Shown here: positions 52,654 to 63,807 of the stretch, in pieces
How positions within the stretch are numbered: position 1 is the stretch's first letter
How the letters are laid out: each line of letters opens with the position of its first letter
Origin: Bradyrhizobium sp. BR13661
Lineage (GTDB): Bacteria > Pseudomonadota > Alphaproteobacteria > Rhizobiales > Xanthobacteraceae
Length of the DNA stretch: 64,000 nucleotides
Direction: 5' to 3'
Assembly (NCBI RefSeq): GCF_029892425.1
Contig: NZ_JARXWB010000003.1
Location: 248,001-312,000 of the forward strand
Notes under the pieces: model-generated
What the model saw: only the letters and a program-made list of their open reading frames with translations
Database searches by the model: none
What the model was told of the DNA's origin: nothing
Made by a program: the position numbers and the translations under genes

Positions 52654-53985
52654 TCACTTCAACATTGGCATGCGGAGACCGCGTTCCTTGGCGCACCTGA
52701 TCGCGAGTTCATAGCCGGCATCGGCATGACGCATGACGCCCGAACCGCAATCGTTGAACAGAACGCGTTCCAGGCGTCTTGCAGCGGCGTCAGTCCCGTC
52801 GGCGACGATGACCACGCCCGAGTGTTGCGAATAACCCATGCCGACACCACCTCCGTGATGCAGCGAGACCCAGGTAGCCCCGCCGGCCGTATTCAACAGA
52901 GCGTTGAGCAGCGGCCAGTCCGAGACTGCGTCTGTGCCGTCCTTCATCGCTTCCGTCTCGCGATTCGGGCTGGCCACCGATCCGGTGTCGAGATGGTCGC
53001 GGCCGATAACGATGGGCGCCTTGAGCTCGCCGGTCCGAACCATCTCGTTGAAAGCCAGCCCCGCGCGATGTCTTTCACCGAGCCCGAGCCAACAGATGCG
53101 GGCCGGCAACCCTTGGAACGCGATCCGCTCGCGCGCCATATCAAGCCAGCGATGTACGTGCGTGTTATCGGGAAACAGCTGCTTGACCTTGCGATCGGTC
53201 TTGTAGATGTCCTCGGGATCGCCGGACAGCGCCACCCAACGGAAGGGGCCCTTGCCCTCGCAAAACAGCGGGCGGATATAGGCCGGCACGAAGCCAGGGA
53301 AATCGAACGCGTTCCTGACGCCATGTTCGAGGGCCACCTGTCGGATGTTGTTACCGTAGTCGACAACCGGGATCCCCATCTTGAGAAAGTCAAGCATGGC
53401 CTGGACGTGAATCGCGCACGACTTGGCCGCTTCCGCCGTCAGCCGCGGATGCTCGTCGGGAAGACGCTGCGCGCTTTTCCACTGCTCGACCGTCCAGCCG
53501 ATCGGGAGATACCCGTTGATGAGATCATGCGCGGATGTCTGGTCGGTGACGAGATCCGGGCGCGGGCCACCGGTGCGGGCACGCCGCGCAAGTTCGGAGA
53601 ATACCTCGGCCGCATTGCCCAGCAGGCCGATCGATACAGCCTCCTTGCGCTCGCAGTGATGCTTGACCAACGCGAGGGCGTCGTCGAGGTCCTTCGCCTG
53701 TTTGTCGAGGTACCTCGTGCGAATGCGAAAATCGAGACTCGATTGCTGACATTCGACGGTGAGCGAGCAAGCACCAGCCAGCGTTGCTGCAAGCGGCTGT
53801 GCGCCGCCCATGCCCCCGAGGCCCGCGGTGAGAATCCATCGCCCAGCGAGGCTGCCTCCGAAATGCTGACGTCCAGCCTCGGCGAAGGTCTCGTAAGTGC
53901 CCTGAACAATGCCCTGACTACCGATGTAGATCCAGCTACCGGCCGTCATTTGGCCGTACATGAAGAGGCCCTTGCGATCGAGCTC
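52654..53985 (-). pseudogene. hutU: Urocanate hydratase, 5'-truncated
   Basis: The HutU sequence is normal from [16 protein letters not shown] through [16 protein letters not shown] (NAD-binding loop) to [34 protein letters not shown] and [17 protein letters not shown], ending as expected. What is missing is the first ~120 residues: at 53985 similarity stops and the upstream codons (to 54093) are unrelated. HutU is normally about 555 residues; this would be about 440. No other frame upstream restores the N terminus. The enzyme hydrates urocanate with a bound NAD+; without the N-terminal domain it is probably inactive. hutH is not seen. Confidence 0.85.
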
Positions 53986-54093
53986 TCTATGGGAAAGACT
54001 TGGTACGGTGAAACGCGACAGTCGTCCACCGCTTCTCCAAACTCTCCAAACTGTTTCCATTCCGGCCGACGAGCAGGGCATCTCCGCGGGCAC

Positions 54094-54401
54094 TGAATTT
54101 GTCGTGTTTGACGTCGAGGGTGCCGGTCGGGCATCTCAATATGCTACGATATGTGGTTCCCGGAAACGACCCGGTAGACGGCGGCGATGGCCGCGGAGGT
54201 GATCCTGCACCCGACGATGACGGACACAATCGATGGGGTGCCGAGCTGTCAATCGCAAGGGTCTCCGCAGCATGAACCGGTGGTACTTCTTCGGCATGAC
54301 GGTTGTGGCGAGCCGAGGCGCACCTGTTCTCCGGCCCGAGCGAGCCGGACCCGCAGGCTTCGTACCACTACCCCATCAGTCACAAGTCCATGGAGGTTCC
54401 C
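54094..54401. other. Junction between the cut hutU and the decarboxylase operon
   Basis: About 300 bp. It contains no hutU remainder and no recognised gene. It must hold the promoter for the plus-strand decarboxylase operon. The recombination point is probably at or just right of 53985. Confidence 0.5.
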
Positions 54402-57206
54402 ATGGCTCGCAGGCAACGGCGCAATCACGAAACCTCGCTCAATCGAGGACACAGCGTCTGGGAACTGCGAGGCGATAGTTGGATATCTCTCGCGGACGAC
54501 CTGAGCCGGATGAGCGAGTTGCCGCGTGACGGCGCCGAGTTCGCCGAGCGCAAGGAACGGGTCCACAAAACCCTTTCGATCCTGCGGCCGATTGAAAGCT
54601 ATTGGGCCTTCCCCGGCAGGAAGCTTTTCGAGGAGGTCGTGCAGTGGTTCGAGACGGGAGATCTGCACCGCACGCACACGGCGGTGCGTCACATCAACAG
54701 GATGCTTGCCAATCGCTCCTACCGTCACCAGTCGCTGTCCCTCAATTCCGACTCGGAAGGCCCGTCGGCGATCGAGACAGATGAGGAAGCACAGGCCCAG
54801 ATCAGCAAGCCCTATTTCGAGGTCCTGATTGTCGACGAGATGTCGGACGAGGAAGAGGAGGCCCTACGACGGCGGGTGCAGCGCAAGCAGCGACCGGACG
54901 ACGCCTTCATCTTCGACATCGTCATCGTGCCCAGCTTCGAGGACGCGCTGATCGCGACGCTGTTTAACTTCAATCTGCAGGCCTGCGTCATCCGCCACGG
55001 CTTTCCGTTCCGTTCCGAATACGAGCTCGACCTCTTGTGGAAGTTCCTCGATGATCTTGACGAGCATATCGAGCGCAAACCGGAATCGGAGCGCGGGCCG
55101 CTTCTCGGCCGCAAGATATCCGAGCTTCGTCCCGAGCTCGATCTCTATCTCGTCACCGACCTCAAGGCCGAGGAGGTCGCGGTCAAGGTCGGCGGCGTGT
55201 TCCGGCGCGTGTTTTTCCGCGAGGAGGACCACACCGAGCTCTATATGTCGATCATGCGCGGGGTCCAACAACGCTATCGTACTCCGTTCTTCTCGGCGTT
55301 GAAGGAATACTCCAAACAGCCGACTGGTGTCTTCCACGCTCTGCCGATCGCGCGCGCGAAATCGATCCTCAACTCCAACTGGATTCAGGACGTCGCCCAG
55401 TTCTACGGAACGAACCTTTTCATGGCCGAGACATCGGCTACCGCAGGCGGGCTCGATTCGCTGCTCGAACCCGTCGGCCCGCTAAAAAGCGCCCAGGAAG
55501 CGGCGGCACGCGCCTTTGGCGCCAAGCGGACGTACTTCGTCACCAACGGCACCTCGACCGCCAACAAAGTGGTCGTCCAGGCGCTGGTGAAGCCTGGCGA
55601 TATCGTGCTGATCGACCGCAACTGCCACAAATCCCACCATTACGGGATGGTGCTCAGCGGGGCCCAGGTTGCCTATCTCGACTCATATCCGCTCGACAGC
55701 TGCTCGATGTATGGTGCCGTGCCGATTACCGAGCTCAAGCGCGTCTTGCTCGCCTATCGTCGCGCCGGTTATCTGGCGCGCGTGAAGATGGTGCTCCTGA
55801 CGAACTGCACCTTCGACGGCATCGTTTACGATGTCGAGAGGGTGATGGAAGAGTGCTTGGCCATTAAGCCCGACTTGATCTTCCTCTGGGACGAAGCCTG
55901 GTTCGCATTCGCCCGGTTCCATCCCACCTATCGCCGGCGCACCGCGATGGCTGCGGCGTCCCGACTGTTCGAGCGGTTCACGGATCCCGCCTACGCGAGG
56001 AAATACGCCGATTTCGCGAAGGACCTGGATATTGAGCAGTGCGACGATGACACGAAGTTGCTCGAGAGCAGACTGCTCCCCGATCCGGCCAGGGCGCATG
56101 TGCGCGTCTATGCTACTCATTCGACCCACAAGACGCTGACCGCTCTGCGCCAGGGCTCGATGATCCACGTCTGGGACCAAGATTTCCGAGACAAGACGGA
56201 AGAGGCCTTCCACGAGGCCTACATGACCCATACCTCGACCTCGCCAAACTATCAAATCCTCGCCTCGCTCGATTTCGGCCGCAGACAGGTGGAGCTCGAA
56301 GGTTACGAACTGGTTCAGCGGCAGATTGAACTCGCCATGACATTGCGCGAGCAGATCGCGACCCACCCTCTCCTCAAAAAGCACTTCCATTTCCAGAACG
56401 TGGACGAACTCGTCCCGGCGGCTTATCGCGCTTCCGGAATCGAGAGCAACTACGAGCCGGCAACAGGCTGGGCCAATATGGAGACCGCGTGGCGGACTGA
56501 CGAGTTCGCGCTCGACCCTACCCGTCTGACGCTCTTCATCGGCAAGACCGGCATCGACGGAGACACCTTCAAGAACAAGTACTTGATGGACAAGTACGGT
56601 ATTCAGATCAACAAGACGTCGCGAAACACCGTGCTTTTCATCACCAATATCGGCACTACCAGATCGTCCGTCGCCTATCTCATCGAAGCTCTGGTGCAAA
56701 TTGCTAGGGAGATCGAAAGCAGTATAGCCGATCTCAGTGCGATCGAGCGGAAAATCCACGAGAAGCGCGTGCGCTCGCTGACGGAAGATCTTCCGCCGCT
56801 CCCTGACTTCTCGCATTTCCATCCCGCGTTCCGCCAGAGCGCCGCCGGCAACTTCGCCGCAACACCCGACGGCAACATCCGCAGGGCGTTCTTCCTCTCC
56901 TATGACGAAGAGAATTGCGAATATCTAACCCTCGCCGAAGTGCGGCGAGCCCTCGCCGCAGGACGGGAACTCGTCTCGGCGCTCTTCGTCATCCCGTACC
57001 CTCCGGGCTTTCCGATCCTCGTTCCGGGACAGGCGATTAGCGCGGACATCCTGACGTTTGTGGAAGCTCTCGACGTCCGCGAAATCCACGGATACCGACC
57101 CGAGATCGGCCTCCGGATATTCGCTGAGAAAGTGCTGCTGGCCGTCATCCAGCCCGGCGCCCCCGAAAACGTGAACGAGCAGCCCGCCATCCAAGTCGAC
57201 GCCTAA
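54402..57206 (+). CDS. Orn/Lys/Arg decarboxylase-type PLP enzyme
   Basis: About 934 residues from ATG 54402 (GGAGG at 54393-54397); an open frame to 54303 is not needed. The N terminus (about 1-140) is a family-unlike charged region. A response-regulator-like wing domain follows (FEVLIVDEMSDEEEEALRRR, DAFIFDIVIVPSF). The PLP fold then has FVTNGTSTANKVVVQALVKPG, DRNCHKSHHYGMVLSGA, FLWDEAWFAFARFHP and ATHSTHKTLTALRQGS with Lys577 as Schiff-base lysine. It probably decarboxylates ornithine, lysine, arginine or a related amino acid. It is much longer than the 710-750-residue enterobacterial enzymes. It is followed by an ATP-grasp ligase (33 bp). Confidence 0.88.
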   Translation: MARRQRRNHETSLNRGHSVWELRGDSWISLADDLSRMSELPRDGAEFAERKERVHKTLSILRPIESYWAFPGRKLFEEVVQWFETGDLHRTHTAVRHINRMLANRSYRHQSLSLNSDSEGPSAIETDEEAQAQISKPYFEVLIVDEMSDEEEEALRRRVQRKQRPDDAFIFDIVIVPSFEDALIATLFNFNLQACVIRHGFPFRSEYELDLLWKFLDDLDEHIERKPESERGPLLGRKISELRPELDLYLVTDLKAEEVAVKVGGVFRRVFFREEDHTELYMSIMRGVQQRYRTPFFSALKEYSKQPTGVFHALPIARAKSILNSNWIQDVAQFYGTNLFMAETSATAGGLDSLLEPVGPLKSAQEAAARAFGAKRTYFVTNGTSTANKVVVQALVKPGDIVLIDRNCHKSHHYGMVLSGAQVAYLDSYPLDSCSMYGAVPITELKRVLLAYRRAGYLARVKMVLLTNCTFDGIVYDVERVMEECLAIKPDLIFLWDEAWFAFARFHPTYRRRTAMAAASRLFERFTDPAYARKYADFAKDLDIEQCDDDTKLLESRLLPDPARAHVRVYATHSTHKTLTALRQGSMIHVWDQDFRDKTEEAFHEAYMTHTSTSPNYQILASLDFGRRQVELEGYELVQRQIELAMTLREQIATHPLLKKHFHFQNVDELVPAAYRASGIESNYEPATGWANMETAWRTDEFALDPTRLTLFIGKTGIDGDTFKNKYLMDKYGIQINKTSRNTVLFITNIGTTRSSVAYLIEALVQIAREIESSIADLSAIERKIHEKRVRSLTEDLPPLPDFSHFHPAFRQSAAGNFAATPDGNIRRAFFLSYDEENCEYLTLAEVRRALAAGRELVSALFVIPYPPGFPILVPGQAISADILTFVEALDVREIHGYRPEIGLRIFAEKVLLAVIQPGAPENVNEQPAIQVDA

Positions 57207-57239
57207 CTCAAGCCCACATGTCACATCCAAGGGGGACAC

Positions 57240-58697
57240 ATGGACATCATCAGAAACATCTCGGATCTTCGGCTGTTCTTCCACCGGAATGAGCGACCGA
57301 TCTATTTCATCAGCGCCACCAACTTTAACCTTCTCGGCATCGATCACTGGGTCAACAGGTTCCAATACATAAATTACATCGACTGCTTCGACGGCCGCCA
57401 CCCGAACGTATTCGTCCCGTCGGAGACGCCGCACCCGGAGTTTGAATCAATTGAGGACATCAACAACTACCTCCTCCAGCACAAAGAGGTCACCGACCTG
57501 ATCAACCGGCGCGGCGGCAAGCCGGTGGCCACGTTCCTGATGTTCGACGAGAAGACCGAAGAATTGGCCCAGGAACTGGGCCTCGAGGTCTGGTTCCCGT
57601 CGGCGAAACTGCGTCAGCGCTGCGACAACAAGATGGAGACCGTCCGCATCGGCAACAAGGCGGGCGTGCCCTCGGTGCCGAATGCTCTCGAGAAGGTGTC
57701 CAGCTGGCAGAACCTGATGAAGATCGCCAATCGGGCGGGTCTCGGCCACGACCTGGTCATCCAAACCGCCTTCGGCGATTCGGGACATACAACGTTCTTC
57801 ATCGCCAACGAGGACGACTTCAACAAGCACAAGGACGAGATCGTCGGCGAAGCCGAAGTCAAGATCATGAAGCGGATCAACTGCCGGGGCGCGACACTCG
57901 AGGCCTGCGCCACGCAGTCGGGAACGCTGGTCGGACCGCTGCTGACCGAGGTCGTCGGCGCCCGCGAACTCACGCCCTACAAGGGCGGCTGGTGCGGGAA
58001 CGAGGTGTTCCTGGGAGCCTTCCCTGACGGCGTGCGTGAGAAGGCTCGCGACATGGCGTTCCGTTTCGGTACCCAGCTCCTGGAGGAAGGATATCGGGGC
58101 TATTTCGACCTCGACTTTCTCATCGATCAGGACACGGGCGAGGTCTATCTGGGCGAGCTCAACCCACGTATCTGCGGCGCGAGCTCGATGACCAACCATG
58201 CGGCCTTCGCCTATGCGGACGCCCCGCTCTTCCTCTTCCATCTCCTTGAATTTTCGGGCGTTCCCTTCGAACTGAACGTTGCGGAGCTGAACGAGCGCTG
58301 GGCTAGGCCGGAATTCATCGATTCGTGGTCGCAGGTCGTCCTCAAATACACGGCGACCAATGTCGACCATGTGACCCACGCGCCGCCTTCCGGCATGTAC
58401 CGCATCAATGAGGATGGCTCGGCGGTCTCGTATCATCGCTTCGACACCAACCGACGTGCGATCGATTCCGAGCGCGAGGGCTTCTTCCTGCGGATCACCG
58501 GCGCCGGGGATTATCGCTACGAGGGCGCGGATCTCGGTATCCTAATCCTGCGCGGGCGAGCGATGGACGACCAGTTTCGCCTCAATGAAAGAGTCCATAA
58601 CTGGATCCGCGGCATCAGGCAGTACTACGGCGCTGCGCCTCTGGTCGCAGCTCAAATTGAAACGGCCCCGCAGGCGGGCTCCTTCAAGATCCTTTGA
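57240..58697 (+). CDS. ATP-grasp family ligase
   Basis: 485 residues with the ribosome-binding site AAGGGGG just before the ATG. The N-terminal domain (about 1-120) is a pre-ATP-grasp Rossmann-like unit. The ATP-grasp core spans about 130-340: GNKAGVPSVPNALEKVSSW, LVIQTAFGDSGHTTFFI (ATP-binding loop), VKIMKRINCRGATLEACATQ and YFDLDFLIDQDTGEVYLGEL-NPR (metal-binding Glu/Asn). A C-terminal domain (about 350-485) is unfamiliar. ATP-grasp enzymes join a carboxylate to an amine or thiol through an acyl phosphate. Between a decarboxylase and an Ntn-hydrolase it may ligate the diamine product to an acid. Confidence 0.85.
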   Translation: MDIIRNISDLRLFFHRNERPIYFISATNFNLLGIDHWVNRFQYINYIDCFDGRHPNVFVPSETPHPEFESIEDINNYLLQHKEVTDLINRRGGKPVATFLMFDEKTEELAQELGLEVWFPSAKLRQRCDNKMETVRIGNKAGVPSVPNALEKVSSWQNLMKIANRAGLGHDLVIQTAFGDSGHTTFFIANEDDFNKHKDEIVGEAEVKIMKRINCRGATLEACATQSGTLVGPLLTEVVGARELTPYKGGWCGNEVFLGAFPDGVREKARDMAFRFGTQLLEEGYRGYFDLDFLIDQDTGEVYLGELNPRICGASSMTNHAAFAYADAPLFLFHLLEFSGVPFELNVAELNERWARPEFIDSWSQVVLKYTATNVDHVTHAPPSGMYRINEDGSAVSYHRFDTNRRAIDSEREGFFLRITGAGDYRYEGADLGILILRGRAMDDQFRLNERVHNWIRGIRQYYGAAPLVAAQIETAPQAGSFKIL

Positions 58698-58710
58698 GCG
58701 ATTGTTAGCC

Positions 58711-59724
58711 GTGCAGTGCACATTCTCAGCGATCGTCGAAGACCACGCTGGCCCGAAGTGGCAAGGGCTCTTCAAGCACCATTGGAGCGGTTACCGCAGC
58801 TGGTTTCTCAGAAGCGCGGTCACCGAGCGTCCGAGCTATCTCGCCTGCCGGCGAGCGGTCGCTCAGCACATGCCCGAATGGCTGCCCGTCTGGGAAGCCT
58901 TGAGTGAATTGGCAGGCGGCGGCGACATCGAGGCCCGCTTCCTGTCCATGTGGAGTCCGCCGGCCTATATCGCTGGCTGTACGCAGACTATATGGGCGAG
59001 GAACGGTGTTTCCTCACTTGTTCGCAACTACGATTATCCTCCGAGCCTCTTGGAGGGAGCATGGCTCGCCACGCGCTGGACCGGACAGCGCGTCGTCGCG
59101 CTGAGCGATTGCCTTTGCGGGGTTCTCGACGGGATGAACGAATCCGGCCTCGCCGTCTCGCTTAGTTTCGGAGGGCGGCAGAACACGGGACCGGGCTTCG
59201 GAATTCCGGTCGTCTTGCGTTACATCCTCGAGGTCTGTCGCACGACGAAGGAAGCGGCAGCCGTGCTCGCGCGCGTCCCGATCCATATGACCTACAGCGT
59301 CACGCTACTCGATCGTCAGGGAGGGTCTGTGATGGTTTTCGTCGCTCCCGACCGGGAGGCGGAGATTCTGCCGGCGCGGCCGGTCGCCAACCATCAGCAC
59401 TCAATCGAATGGCCCGAGCACGCCAAGGCCACCCGCTCCCAAGAGCGGGAACGACAACTCTGCAAAGTCATGAGCGAGGCGAAGTCGATGGAAGATCTGC
59501 TTCAGTCCATGTTGCGTCCGCCGCTATACCAGACGGCCTACCAGCGCGGCTTCGGTACGCTCTACACGGCCGTCTACACGCCGATGGAAGATGCGGTCCA
59601 ACTCATCTGGCCGTCATACCGCTGGCGCCAGACGATCGACGATTTTCAGGAGGGCTCCCACACGGTCTCGTTTGCCGCCCGCCCTCCCGAAGCCGGCGTG
59701 CGGCGCGCGGTGGTCCCCAAATGA
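58711..59724 (+). CDS. C45 family autoproteolytic acyltransferase/hydrolase (Ntn fold)
   Basis: About 337 residues from GTG 58711, 13 bases after the ATP-grasp stop. The frame is open to ATG 58585, inside the upstream gene, which is a second possible start. YIAGCTQTIWARNGVSSLV followed by RNYDYPP is the AAT-like cleavage site: Gly-Cys-Thr as in fungal acyl-CoA:6-APA acyltransferase, with Cys90 (GTG numbering) becoming the N-terminal nucleophile. DCLCGVLDGMNESGLAVSLS is a further C45 block. Such enzymes cleave or transfer acyl groups on amides. It is the third gene of the decarboxylase operon. Confidence 0.83.
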   Translation: MQCTFSAIVEDHAGPKWQGLFKHHWSGYRSWFLRSAVTERPSYLACRRAVAQHMPEWLPVWEALSELAGGGDIEARFLSMWSPPAYIAGCTQTIWARNGVSSLVRNYDYPPSLLEGAWLATRWTGQRVVALSDCLCGVLDGMNESGLAVSLSFGGRQNTGPGFGIPVVLRYILEVCRTTKEAAAVLARVPIHMTYSVTLLDRQGGSVMVFVAPDREAEILPARPVANHQHSIEWPEHAKATRSQERERQLCKVMSEAKSMEDLLQSMLRPPLYQTAYQRGFGTLYTAVYTPMEDAVQLIWPSYRWRQTIDDFQEGSHTVSFAARPPEAGVRRAVVPK

Positions 59725-60666: not shown

Positions 60667-61314
60667 TCATGGCGTCGCGAGTACGATGTGCAGGTATTTT
60701 GGCCCGTGCGCACCCAGCACCAGGCTGCCCTCGATGTCGGTGGTGCCGCTGGCGCCGGTGATGATGTTCACGTTGCGCGGCGCCCTCTCGCCGGCGGCTG
60801 CTGCGGCGTAGTCTTCGAGGTGGGCGACGATCGTCCTTGCGTGCAGCAGCACCAAGTGGTGCAAGGGCAGAAAGTTGGCCAGGATCGGCGTCTCGGCACC
60901 CGAGTGAAAGACCAGCGACCCGGTTTCTGCGATGCCCCAGCACGCGACGCCCACCACCACCGCTTCGTCAGACGCGACCGACGGGTGCAGTTCGAAGCCG
61001 GTCCAGTCCAGCGCCCTCAACTCCGCGGCGGGCTGCAGTGCGATGGCCGGCCGCAGGCCGCAGGCGTCGAGGTAGCGGCGCACGGCGCCGGGCAGATCGA
61101 CCGCGCTGCCGATCCGGTCGACGGTAGCGGCCACCTTCGGTGTCGTGGCCCGCGCGGCGAAGACCGCAGGCAGATCGGCCGATGCGAGGATCGGCCGTAT
61201 CGAGGGCAGGTCAGCCAGCAGCGCCGCGGCGTCGCGCCCCACCTGGGCGGCATCGACACTGCGCGTGCCCAACCCGGCACGCACGGCTTCCAGGATGTTG
61301 TCGCGAACGCTCAT
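60667..61314 (-). CDS. lutC: Lactate utilisation protein C (LUD domain)
   Basis: 215 residues. MSVRDNILEAVRAGLG at the start and a LUD domain: ACWGIAETGSLVFHSG, LLHARTIVAHLEDYAA, NVNIITGASGTTDIEGSLVL and GAHGPKYLHIVL. LutC is the third component of the LutABC iron-sulfur L-lactate oxidase; it is soluble and has no cluster motif. The ATG overlaps the lutB stop by four bases, so lutB and lutC are translationally coupled on the minus strand. Confidence 0.9.
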   Translation of the reverse strand: MSVRDNILEAVRAGLGTRSVDAAQVGRDAAALLADLPSIRPILASADLPAVFAARATTPKVAATVDRIGSAVDLPGAVRRYLDACGLRPAIALQPAAELRALDWTGFELHPSVASDEAVVVGVACWGIAETGSLVFHSGAETPILANFLPLHHLVLLHARTIVAHLEDYAAAAAGERAPRNVNIITGASGTTDIEGSLVLGAHGPKYLHIVLATP

Positions 61315-62723
61315 GGCCGCCCCCGCGCGCCGTCGCGCATCATCGCCATGAAGGTGCGCTTCGCCGGCGCCGGGAAGTCGCGGTACGCCGTCCAGGCGCC
61401 GATGCCCGGCATGCCGCGGATCCAGCCACCGCGCTTGAACAGCCGCATCGCCCGCACCGCGATGGAAGCGCCCAGGTGGTACAGCCACGGCCGCGACGCG
61501 ACGAAGGTGAAGACGCCGAGCCCGAAGCGCATCGTGGCCGGCTCCAGTCCTTCGCGCCACGAGCGGTCGCGCCAGCCGCGCAGCAGTGTCGGCAGCGGAA
61601 TGTCCACCGGGCACACCTCCTGGCACTTGCCGTTCAGCGTGCAGGCGTGCACGGGCTCGCGCGAACTCTCCAGGCCGTCGAAGACCGGTGTCAGCACCGC
61701 GCCCATCGGGCCCGGGTAGGTCCCACCGTAAGCGTGGCCGCCGAGTTGGCGGAACACGACGCAGTGGTTCATGCAGGCGCCGCAACGGATGCAGCGCAGC
61801 ATGTCTTTGAGGCCCTCCTTCAGCATGCGCGTGCGGCCGTTGTCGACGAGCACGATGTGGAACTCCTCGGGCCCGTCACGGTCGCCCGGCTGCTTCGGGC
61901 CGCAGTGGAAGGTGGTGTATTGCGTGATGTCGGCGCCGGTGGCCGAGCGCACCAGCAGCCGCAGCATCGCGAATGCGTGCGCCATCGTCGGCACCAGCTT
62001 TTCGATGCCGGCGGTGACGATGTGCACGCGCGGCGGCGTCGTCGATAATTCGGCGTTGCCTTCGTTGGTGACGGTGCAGGTGGAGCCGGTGTCGGCGACG
62101 AGGAAGTTCGCGCCCGAGATAGAGACGTCGGCCGACAGGAACTTGTCGCGCAGCTCGCGCCGAGCGCTGTCGACCATCGCCTCGATGGTCTCGTCGGTGT
62201 GCGGCGCGCGATGCAGCTTCTTGAACATCTCGGACACCTGCTCGCGCGTGCGGTGCATCGCCGGCCAGACGATGTGGGAGGGCGTGTCGCCACCAAGCTG
62301 GACGATGTGCTCTGCGAGGTCGGTTTCGATGCGCTCGATGCCGGCTTCATCGAGCGCATGCGGCAGCCCGATCTCCTCGCCGAGCATCGACTTCACGCGC
62401 GTTACCCGTCGGGCCCCGGCCTGGCGGCACAGCTCGACGACGATGCGCGAGGCATCGCCGGCGGTCGCCGCCCAGTGCACGGTGGCTCCTGACGCGATGG
62501 CGTTGCGTTCGAACTCGACCAGGTAGTGGTCCATGTGATCGATGACGTGGCTCTTGATGCGCTTGCCGCGCTCGCGCGCCGCTTCGAACTGCGGGAAGTC
62601 GACCAGCGCCGCCGCACGCTTGCGTTCGGCGGTGCCGGTGGTGCGACCGATGGCGACCTTCAGCGTCGGGTCGGCGAGCGCGGCGTCAACGCGGGCCTTG
62701 AACGTCATGGGGGCTGTAGGCAT
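61311..62723 (-). CDS. lutB: Lactate utilisation iron-sulfur protein B
   Basis: 470 residues. The N-terminal LUD-like domain includes RVKSMLGEEIGLPHALDEAG, ETDLAEHIVQLGGDTPSHIV and SADVSISGANFLVADTGS. A ferredoxin-like segment follows with two 4Fe-4S motifs: CIRCGACMNHC and CTLNGKCQEVCP. The C terminus has membrane-near helices (GLGVFTFVASRPWLYHLG). LutABC oxidises L-lactate to pyruvate. It lies four bases after lutA and overlaps lutC. Confidence 0.93.
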   Translation of the reverse strand: MPTAPMTFKARVDAALADPTLKVAIGRTTGTAERKRAAALVDFPQFEAARERGKRIKSHVIDHMDHYLVEFERNAIASGATVHWAATAGDASRIVVELCRQAGARRVTRVKSMLGEEIGLPHALDEAGIERIETDLAEHIVQLGGDTPSHIVWPAMHRTREQVSEMFKKLHRAPHTDETIEAMVDSARRELRDKFLSADVSISGANFLVADTGSTCTVTNEGNAELSTTPPRVHIVTAGIEKLVPTMAHAFAMLRLLVRSATGADITQYTTFHCGPKQPGDRDGPEEFHIVLVDNGRTRMLKEGLKDMLRCIRCGACMNHCVVFRQLGGHAYGGTYPGPMGAVLTPVFDGLESSREPVHACTLNGKCQEVCPVDIPLPTLLRGWRDRSWREGLEPATMRFGLGVFTFVASRPWLYHLGASIAVRAMRLFKRGGWIRGMPGIGAWTAYRDFPAPAKRTFMAMMRDGARGRP

Positions 62724-62727
62724 CGGA

Positions 62728-63516
62728 TCACCTCTCCTCGCCGATGGCGGGCAACTCGGTCATTCCGGCCAGCACCTCGATGGCGTGGAACACACGCACC
62801 TTCGACCCGTTGCGGCTCAGCTTGCCGGCCATGTTCATCAGGCAGCCGAGGTCACCGCCGAGCAAAAGCTGCGCGCCGGTGTGTTCGATGGCCGCCGCCT
62901 TCTCGCTGACCACCGCGTTGGAGATTGCAGAGTACTTGACGCAGAACGTGCCGCCGAAGCCGCAGCAGACATCGTTGCCTTCCAGTGGCCTCATTTCGAG
63001 ACCGCCGACCGCGCCGAGCAACGCGCGCGGCTGGTCGTGCACACCCAGTTCACGCAGGCCGGAGCAGCTGTCGTGATAGGTCGCCGTGGCCGGCAACGTC
63101 ACGCCAGTCGGCCGGTAGTGCATCACATCGACGAGAAAGCTCATCAGCTCGAAGGTGCGCGCGCCGAGCCGGTGCGCGCGCTCGGCCCAGGCCGGATCGT
63201 CGGCCAGGGCCTCGGGGTAGTGTGCACGCGTCATCCCGACGCAGGAGCCCGAAGGCGCGACCACGTAGTCGTAGGGCTCGAAGAGTTCGATGAAGCGGCG
63301 CGCGAGTGCGGCGGCGTCCTTCGTGTCTCCGCTGTTGAACGCCGGCTGCCCACAACAGGTCTGCTGCATGGGTACCTCGACCTTGCAACCGGCGTCCTGC
63401 AGCAACTTCAGCGCCGCGAATCCCACGCTCGGCCGCATCGCGTCCGCCAGGCAGGTGACGAACAGTGCCACACGAGGCATCGATGACGGGGCCGACGAAA
63501 TCAGGGTATTGCTCAT
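62728..63516 (-). CDS. lutA: Lactate utilisation iron-sulfur protein A (CCG domain)
   Basis: About 262 residues from ATG 63516. The frame is open to 63735, but the added 73 codons do not resemble LutA. Two cysteine-rich CCG motifs are seen: QQTCCGQPAFNSG and NDVCCGFGGTFCVKY, with YHDSCSGLRELG between. These bind the redox clusters of heterodisulfide-reductase-like subunits. It is the first gene of lutA-lutB-lutC. The upstream 290 bp (63517-63807) separate it from pntB. Confidence 0.9.
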   Translation of the reverse strand: MSNTLISSAPSSMPRVALFVTCLADAMRPSVGFAALKLLQDAGCKVEVPMQQTCCGQPAFNSGDTKDAAALARRFIELFEPYDYVVAPSGSCVGMTRAHYPEALADDPAWAERAHRLGARTFELMSFLVDVMHYRPTGVTLPATATYHDSCSGLRELGVHDQPRALLGAVGGLEMRPLEGNDVCCGFGGTFCVKYSAISNAVVSEKAAAIEHTGAQLLLGGDLGCLMNMAGKLSRNGSKVRVFHAIEVLAGMTELPAIGEER

Positions 63517-63807
63517 GGGCACATTTCCGTTCGAGCTATGCTGATCCACCGCTTCGACCATCTCCTGGACGATCTTCGTCGCCTTCCGGAAGGCGACGGG
63601 TGTACGACAGTCGTTGGCACCGCGGATGACCGCCACATCGGCCGGGCCGGTTTCGCCGTCGAAGTCCTCCGGCGCTGCAGCGTCAGCGCGGCATCGTCGC
63701 CTTGACGCAACGCGCTGCCGCGCCGGATGATCCACGGATCGGTCCGGGGGCGGCGACCGCGTGCGTGCGAGCGCTCTCGGCTTTGTCGTGTCAAAGTACC
63801 CTCCGGC
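63517..63807. other. Region between lutA and pntB
   Basis: About 290 bp. In frame with lutA it encodes ADVAVIRGANDCRTPVAFRK and more, which I could not assign; it may be a fragment of another gene or simply non-coding. It should contain the lut promoter. Confidence 0.4.

Follow-up and report, generated by a model that had tools for sequence, protein, structure and literature searches.

A conserved decarboxylase, ATP-grasp and amidase gene set in Bradyrhizobium sp. BR13661 with a possible link to GABA metabolism

Results

Three adjoining genes and a broken fourth

The DNA analysed here (the window) is a stretch of 64,000 nucleotides from Bradyrhizobium sp. BR13661 (contig NZ_JARXWB010000003.1, positions 248,001 to 312,000), in which three adjoining genes, called the trio for simplicity, encode a long-form decarboxylase dependent on pyridoxal phosphate (PLP), an ATP-grasp enzyme and a C45-family Ntn-hydrolase (Table 1). 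All three lie on the forward strand, and their open reading frames are separated by gaps of 33 bp and then 13 bp; the coordinates, strands and families given in an earlier note, which had been made from these letters alone, were confirmed. In profile searches the decarboxylase scored 254.6 bits against PF01276 (cut-off 27), which places it in that family, the ATP-grasp enzyme 770.7 bits against NF005096 (PRK06524, named 'biotin carboxylase'; cut-off 684), and the C45 protein 173.7 bits against NF040521 (cut-off 85) and 104.4 bits against PF03417 (cut-off 23.2). The three frames are open over their full length with all checked residues present.

Table 1. Positions of the gene set and of the adjoining truncated gene in the window
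Feature	Position	Strand	Basis
OKR: long-form OKR-fold PLP decarboxylase, 934 aa	54402..57206	+	PF01276, PDB 9n0n match, invariant residues
GRASP: ATP-grasp enzyme, PRK06524 family, 485 aa, probably an amide ligase	57240..58697	+	NF005096, AlphaFold model
C45: C45-family Ntn-hydrolase, 337 aa, GTG start, predicted self-cleavage before Cys90	58711..59724	+	NF040521, PF03417, model
CNH: remnant of a carbon-nitrogen hydrolase (nitrilase superfamily), about the middle third, interrupted by frame breaks and an in-frame stop	~54012..54312	+	tblastn, whole-genome search
Truncated hutU	52654-54093	-	profile match from residue 110 of 545

Conservation of the set in relatives

A pattern-based scan of 84,980 species genomes for relatives of the ATP-grasp enzyme returned 565 stretches, the best 80 of which, a selection leaning to close relatives, form the named set (loci designated L). 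Gene presence was counted by tblastn of representative proteins, used instead of greedy gene calling, which made antisense shadow clusters in the high-GC loci. Among the 80 named loci a C45 gene was found in 79, a CNH gene in 64 and the decarboxylase in 60, and decarboxylase, ATP-grasp enzyme and C45 protein occurred together in 59. The C45 gene follows that of the ATP-grasp enzyme on the same strand within 300 bp or less in 78 of the 79 loci that have it, a pairing far beyond chance; at the sole locus without it (L039, which has the decarboxylase) the contig edge falls inside or just after the ATP-grasp gene. The decarboxylase gene is placed upstream in 47 and downstream in 13 of its 60 loci. 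Five loci without it (L027, L028, L029, L037 and L067) hold less than 2 kb upstream of the ATP-grasp gene, and gene absences are to be taken as lower bounds. Outside the named set, a first batch of further regions contained the trio in 12 of 12, including loci whose ATP-grasp enzyme is only 44-46% identical, with a CNH match in 10, that of L126 being partial. Five more regions had the C45 gene in all five, the decarboxylase in four and CNH in three. At L140 the ATP-grasp, CNH and C45 genes are present without the decarboxylase, indicating that the ligase-hydrolase core is independent of it.

Rare co-occurrence, which by the earlier note would have refuted its proposal, is clearly not the case, and the pairing of an ATP-grasp enzyme with a C45-family amidase that it had pointed out holds. 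The trio is a real, strongly conserved set, but the usual set consists of four genes, the fourth of which, CNH, was missed and is broken in the window. On a Sinorhizobium medicae plasmid (L104, 6804-8670) only broken fragments of the ATP-grasp gene were seen near transposase genes, adjoining aldehyde dehydrogenase fragments. No family match was obtained for four proteins encoded near L123 and L124, two distant loci.

The decarboxylase and its orphan paralogues

Residues were compared in alignments covering 52 of the 61 loci with a decarboxylase match (window included), 51 of 63 for CNH and 75 of 80 for C45, from which rows with coverage of 90% or less (85% or less for CNH), internal stops or a position on the other strand were excluded; for the alignments made with structures, 46 of the 80 ATP-grasp rows and 43 of the 75 C45 rows were picked for spread. 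Lys577 of the PLP lysine motif STHK is identical in 52 of 52 decarboxylases. In the lysine decarboxylase LdcI, Glu526 is the postulated substrate site (PMC5607190, in the part consulted). In the HMMER alignment, where its position was obtained by counting back from the printed residue 552, Glu526 falls on Asn737, so that the acidic residue expected of lysine, arginine and ornithine decarboxylases is replaced. Asn737, Arg741 and Asn742 are invariant in the 52 trio rows and are also present in 18 further rows spanning the position. The consulted parts of PMC4832331, PMC7866039 and PMC8983666 contain no residue assignment for the substrate side chain. The decarboxylase also stays below all curated lysine, arginine and ornithine cut-offs (208/968, 181.5/1056, 176.6/1167, 163.7/794, 148.4/1310 and 107.7/950), although these models are narrow.

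The closest solved relative is PDB 9n0n, a 947-residue 'probable amino acid decarboxylase' (839 bits, residues 4-913 matched). This protein, Rv2531c (9n0n, 9n0o and 9n0p), shares near full-length homology and the Asn at the Glu526 position. A census in the consulted part of PMC12910592 lists 9N0O as Rv2531c, and the structural study is said there not to have clarified the activity. According to the consulted parts of PMC8503589, which also name BtrK, a considerable number of ancestral arginine decarboxylase homologues are unlikely to be polyamine-forming decarboxylases.

Matches to the long-form decarboxylase at E 1e-60 or better were obtained in 69 of 146 genomes of the genus, the window's own included, and those other than the window's gene are 46-53% identical to it. 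We hand-picked 23 orphan-decarboxylase loci from these 69 genomes (L135, the second copy of the same genome, together with L136, L142 and L145-L164), and ATP-grasp, C45 and CNH genes were absent in all 23. Directly beside the orphan gene stands an aspartate:alanine-exchanger-type permease (Asp-Al_Ex, AspT-type) in 21 of the 23 loci, and a second one lies nearby in 20. The four orphan decarboxylases read at Asn737, Arg741 and Asn742 keep all three residues. Because the orphan gene adjoins a permease of a precursor-product-exchanger family, an acidic substrate is suggested, and the two make a candidate pair for decarboxylation and exchange of an acidic amino acid.

The ATP-grasp enzyme and the two hydrolases

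The AlphaFold model of the ATP-grasp enzyme (pLDDT 88.5) has the biotin carboxylase/PurK/PylC fold with Z scores of about 21-22; the three are roughly tied, which rules out reading the substrate from the fold. Glu306, Asn308 and Arg310 are invariant in 46 rows and the ELNPR motif is kept, so that both the fold and the Glu-x-Asn site, the metal site of ATP-grasp enzymes, place it in this superfamily. In carboxylases the Glu of the QVEH motif is the catalytic base. Pyruvate carboxylase NPRIQVEH aligns with NPRICGAS here, the Glu position being Ala314, with Ala in at least 90% of the 46 rows. The annotated name of the family, biotin carboxylase, was therefore rejected, as the carboxylation base is missing, and with Ala314 in place of the catalytic Glu, amide ligation is a more likely function than carboxylation.

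The C45 model (pLDDT 93.7) matches isopenicillin N acyltransferase with Z 30.0 and a root-mean-square deviation of 2.9 over 301 residues; the catalytic Cys is in register, whereas sequence identity in the fold comparison is 12%. The fold alignment with penicillin V acylase begins at model residue 90 against chain residue 1, which puts Cys90 at the nucleophile position, and self-cleavage before Cys90 is predicted. Cys90, Arg105, Asp108 and Asn227 are invariant in 43 rows; score, fold and nucleophile agree in making it a C45 Ntn-hydrolase. Lys577 and Cys90, the residues singled out for mutation in the earlier note, had been placed correctly. Another C45-family member, Tan, cleaves a beta-alanyl amide. 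In CNH, Glu45, Lys115 and Cys148, which we take to be the catalytic residues, are invariant in 51 of 51 rows. By sequence, CNH is closest among solved structures to nitrilase homologue 2, with other nitrilase-family proteins ranking next; it matches the N-carbamoylputrescine amidase model weakly (77.9 bits against a cut-off of 410) and is equally near to formamidase models.

Neighbourhoods of the set

The counts of neighbours are raw co-occurrence frequencies, taken without a random-locus baseline. In the first context (A) a MocR-family regulator, the aminotransferase GabT and succinate-semialdehyde dehydrogenase (SSADH) stand beside CNH, decarboxylase, ATP-grasp enzyme and C45. Among the 80 named loci GabT (at least 50% identity) was found in 30, SSADH (at least 50%) in 23 and a MocR-family regulator match in 28, and GabT and/or SSADH at this identity lie near 31 of the 60 decarboxylase-bearing loci; the scanned representatives of both enzymes pass their curated models.

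In the second context (B), 11 of the 20 named loci that lack the decarboxylase (nine rhizobial, two from Thiothrix and Thiofilum) carry arginine-catabolism genes instead: a permease, a 5-guanidino-2-oxopentanoate (ketoarginine)-type decarboxylase, an aldehyde dehydrogenase, a D-amino acid dehydrogenase and a racemase-arginase fusion, with an agmatinase-family gene in nine and CNH in nine of the 11. Together these genes could lead from arginine to gamma-aminobutyric acid (GABA), the ureohydrolase then being a putative guanidinobutyrase. The fusion (L031, 11797-13581, and relatives) joins an ornithine-racemase-like domain (390.7 bits, short of the curated cut-off of 480) to an arginase-like domain and recurs at the end of the arginine-type variant. 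Five of the remaining nine loci begin near a contig edge. At one Cupriavidus locus without the decarboxylase a histone-deacetylase-family gene was seen.

A third context (C) is found at L119 (5633-19358), where the four genes form part of an operon for ectoine/hydroxyectoine degradation, together with DoeA, DoeB, an Lrp-type regulator, an aldehyde dehydrogenase, an aminotransferase and EutB; the gene order at L120 is similar. On Rhizobium leguminosarum plasmids (context D; L098, L099 and L103) an ABC transporter comes after the trio, accompanied by an amidase where annotated, and no CNH match was obtained at these three loci. The decarboxylase is in pieces in L103 and L105 and annotated as two genes in L099; in L105 the C45 gene is shortened and adjoins transposase genes. 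At L099 (9210-21198) the upstream neighbours of the trio are nifHDK and nifEN. Near some sets we also found TRAP parts, a transporter of the sodium:sulfate-symporter family and an NAD-glutamate dehydrogenase (one member scanned of a cluster from five loci). The remark in the earlier note that no transporter or regulator is attached holds for the window but fails for many relatives.

Origin and decay of the copy in BR13661

With an Acinetobacter CNH protein of 288 aa as the tblastn query, the remnant upstream of the decarboxylase splits into three segments that lie in different frames (query residues 106-124, 123-150 and 142-205; the best-matching segment occupies 54124-54312), and no recognisable trace of the first third or the last part of the gene was found in the window upstream of the decarboxylase. 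A whole-genome search with an Acinetobacter CNH protein gave 70% identity over 48 residues with a TAG inside, and against the Cupriavidus locus L002 the DNA identity is 77.7% over 215 alignment columns. The hutU gene on the opposite strand lacks the first 109 residues of its model (match 110-545 of 545), and an intact copy exists on another contig of the same genome. CNH and hutU thus both lack their starts, with the break at roughly 53.99-54.01 kb, a shared breakpoint that would be the expected signature of an insertion or deletion junction. As both genes are cut at about the same junction, the promoter side of the operon is probably gone as well.

A strong match to the ATP-grasp enzyme is absent from all 59 other Bradyrhizobium genomes searched, which suggests that the set was acquired by transfer from outside the genus; the one weak match (28% over about 200 residues) is probably an unrelated ATP-grasp protein. 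At E 1e-60 or better the enzyme was found in 11 of 398 sampled genomes of the phylum, the window's own included, in 6 of 194 in the order of genome G475 and in 3 of 148 in the order of G106, seed genomes counted. No match was obtained among 50,697 phage records, and a phage origin was rejected. After acquisition, a rearrangement would have removed the start of CNH together with that of the adjoining hutU. The local copy looks partly decayed and may be poorly expressed or incomplete.

Discussion

A possible GABA-linked amide module

We tentatively regard the set as an amide module linked to GABA or another omega-amino acid, with a probability of roughly 0.36. From the gene content, folds, conserved residues and neighbourhoods we infer its substrates, the order of its steps, the amide partner and its purpose (storage or protection). 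The decarboxylase would strip the alpha-carboxylate from an acidic amino acid, with glutamate or one of its derivatives as the likeliest substrate, to yield GABA or a GABA derivative; in relatives without it, the same level may be supplied from arginine via ketoarginine, guanidinobutanal and guanidinobutyrate. The ATP-grasp enzyme, with its fold and motifs, would activate a carboxylate with ATP and couple it to an amine, so that the omega-amino acid could be stored or shielded from cyclisation. Such amides would be hydrolysed by the self-processing C45 enzyme and the CNH amidase, in keeping with the fold of the former, the family of the latter and the conserved residues of both, and GABA would be disposed of to succinate via GabT and GabD, whose genes often adjoin the set in relatives. 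Since the ATP-grasp enzyme, C45 and usually CNH persist without the decarboxylase, this core would act on a product common to contexts A and B, and a shared product favours GABA over a diamine. A more specific proposal, an undescribed GABA cycle in which the decarboxylase switched from basic to acidic substrates, the ATP-grasp enzyme and two amidases conjugate and release GABA or another omega-amino acid, and the decarboxylase is swappable with an arginine-to-GABA branch, is rather unlikely.

Several observations weigh against the GABA module. The position of Asn737 in the substrate pocket is read from the alignment with LdcI and not from a structure of this enzyme, and Rv2531c, though a relative with the same Asn, has Ile where the trio has Arg741. 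The AspT-type permease was not seen in 2 of the 23 orphan loci. GabT or SSADH genes lie near only half of the loci with the decarboxylase and would fit catabolism of agmatine or putrescine just as well. The single MocR-family representative scanned exceeds the cut-off of the PdxR model (429.9 against 320) but stays under that of the GabR model (294.3 against 600), so that a role as GABA regulator is not supported, and the ureohydrolase of context B passes the agmatinase model; both results weaken the GABA module and bring the diamine route discussed below slightly closer. Arginine could also be the real substrate throughout the family, as the arginine-type variant might be read. L018, L021, L023 and L049, all with ample DNA upstream, have neither a full arginine-type set nor the decarboxylase, and the placement of L119 in an ectoine operon is unexplained by GABA alone. 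Moreover, making an amide and then cleaving it is futile unless different bonds, different times or a protected intermediate are involved.

Alternative explanations

The earlier note had proposed that arginine, ornithine or lysine is converted to a diamine or agmatine, which the ATP-grasp enzyme acylates, with the C45 enzyme trimming the acyl group or exchanging it. Taken together with a catabolic variant, in which agmatine or putrescine would reach GABA by a gamma-glutamylation-like route, we consider this quite unlikely. The decarboxylase does belong to the OKR family, putrescine catabolism also ends in GabT and GabD, and the variant without the decarboxylase brings arginine genes and an agmatinase-family gene. 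The histone-deacetylase-family gene of the Cupriavidus locus could be added here, as this family includes acetylpolyamine amidohydrolases. Diamine or polyamine formation is nevertheless disfavoured by the replacement of Glu526 by Asn737 in 52 of 52 rows, by the distance of the best model scores (208, 181.5 and 176.6) from their cut-offs, by the pairing of the orphan paralogue with an Asp/Ala-type exchanger and by a context that leans to GABA. The neutral Asn737 could instead bind a ureido group or an amide, in which case the decarboxylase would act on an amino acid with a neutral side chain, such as citrulline or N-acyl-ornithine, and CNH would be an N-carbamoylputrescine amidase. The weak match of CNH to that model agrees with this, but formamidase models are just as near to CNH and nitrilase homologue 2 is its closest solved structure, and the AspT-type exchanger of the orphans does not fit; we regard this explanation as very improbable.

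Asn737 and the invariant Arg might also suit an amide substrate, as expected if the ATP-grasp enzyme makes a gamma-glutamyl amide, the decarboxylase turns this into the corresponding gamma-aminobutyryl amide, and GABA and the carrier amine are then freed by C45 (or CNH). BtrJ and BtrK follow such a protect-decarboxylate logic on a carrier protein in butirosin synthesis. The trio occurs together in 59 of 80 named loci and 12 of 12 regions of the first batch, in keeping with this scheme, yet the ATP-grasp and C45 genes (with CNH in nine) do without the decarboxylase in the 11 arginine-type loci, as do all three at L140, and we consider the scheme improbable, on a par with the diamine route. Of a different kind is the explanation that the set in BR13661 is a decaying relic that makes nothing, which could hold whatever the intact set does elsewhere and which we consider rather unlikely. 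In its favour, only the middle third of CNH is recognisable, hutU is cut at about the same junction, the promoter side is probably gone and genus mates lack a strong ATP-grasp match, but the trio itself has full-length open frames with the checked residues in place. Divergence of the trio from Cupriavidus lies mostly at third codon positions, which also speaks against a relic, though it mainly reflects the time before transfer.

Comparison with known systems

The Puu putrescine pathway resembles the proposed module in that its GABA-forming route, which GabT and GabD complete, is likewise framed by an ATP-dependent ligase that makes an amide and a hydrolase that cleaves one. The Puu ligase, PuuA, is of the glutamine-synthetase type and the hydrolase, PuuD, is class I glutaminase-like, whereas the set described here uses an ATP-grasp ligase in place of a PuuA-type one, a C45 enzyme and an OKR decarboxylase. 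Among the scanned neighbours, a FAD amine-type oxidoreductase was seen only in the arginine-type variant, as its D-amino acid dehydrogenase. The combination of ATP-grasp ligase, PLP decarboxylase and deprotecting amidase is known from BtrJ, BtrK and BtrG of butirosin synthesis. Unlike that system, the four-gene set has no carrier protein, its decarboxylase has the OKR fold and not the alanine-racemase fold of BtrK, and its neighbours are catabolic. The GABA utilisation regulons under MocR-family regulators in Proteobacteria (PMC5320631, consulted in part) resemble the set in that a MocR-family regulator, GabT and GabD recur beside it, but the regulator scanned here fits PdxR and not GabR. In the main text of that paper the words 'ATP-grasp' and 'amidohydrolase' do not occur, and glutamate decarboxylase is mentioned in passing only. 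The earlier note knew of no described pathway with exactly this set, and searches of openly licensed full texts aimed at the set returned none, as judged by title, abstract start and term counts, though an earlier description elsewhere is possible.

The 565 stretches encode relatives of an ATP-grasp family that is labelled 'biotin carboxylase', has a regular amidase partner and awaits a function. For the long-form decarboxylases the activity of the solved member was not clarified (PMC12910592, in the part consulted). If this group uses acidic substrates, its labels as ornithine, lysine or arginine decarboxylases, and the polyamine predictions derived from them, would be wrong for the group. 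If the GABA cycle were true, it would give a function to the widespread ligase family and an activity class to the long-form enzymes. The same set adjoins nifHDK on one Rhizobium plasmid (L099).

Apparently unrelated neighbours in the window

Lactate-oxidation genes on the reverse strand (61311-63735), a LutB-like gene and a part resembling the C-terminus of LdhH, look like unrelated neighbours. A functional tie of the trio to these genes or to the adjoining hut (histidine) genes is unlikely, as both lie on the opposite strand and such genes were not named among the scanned neighbour clusters of the relatives.

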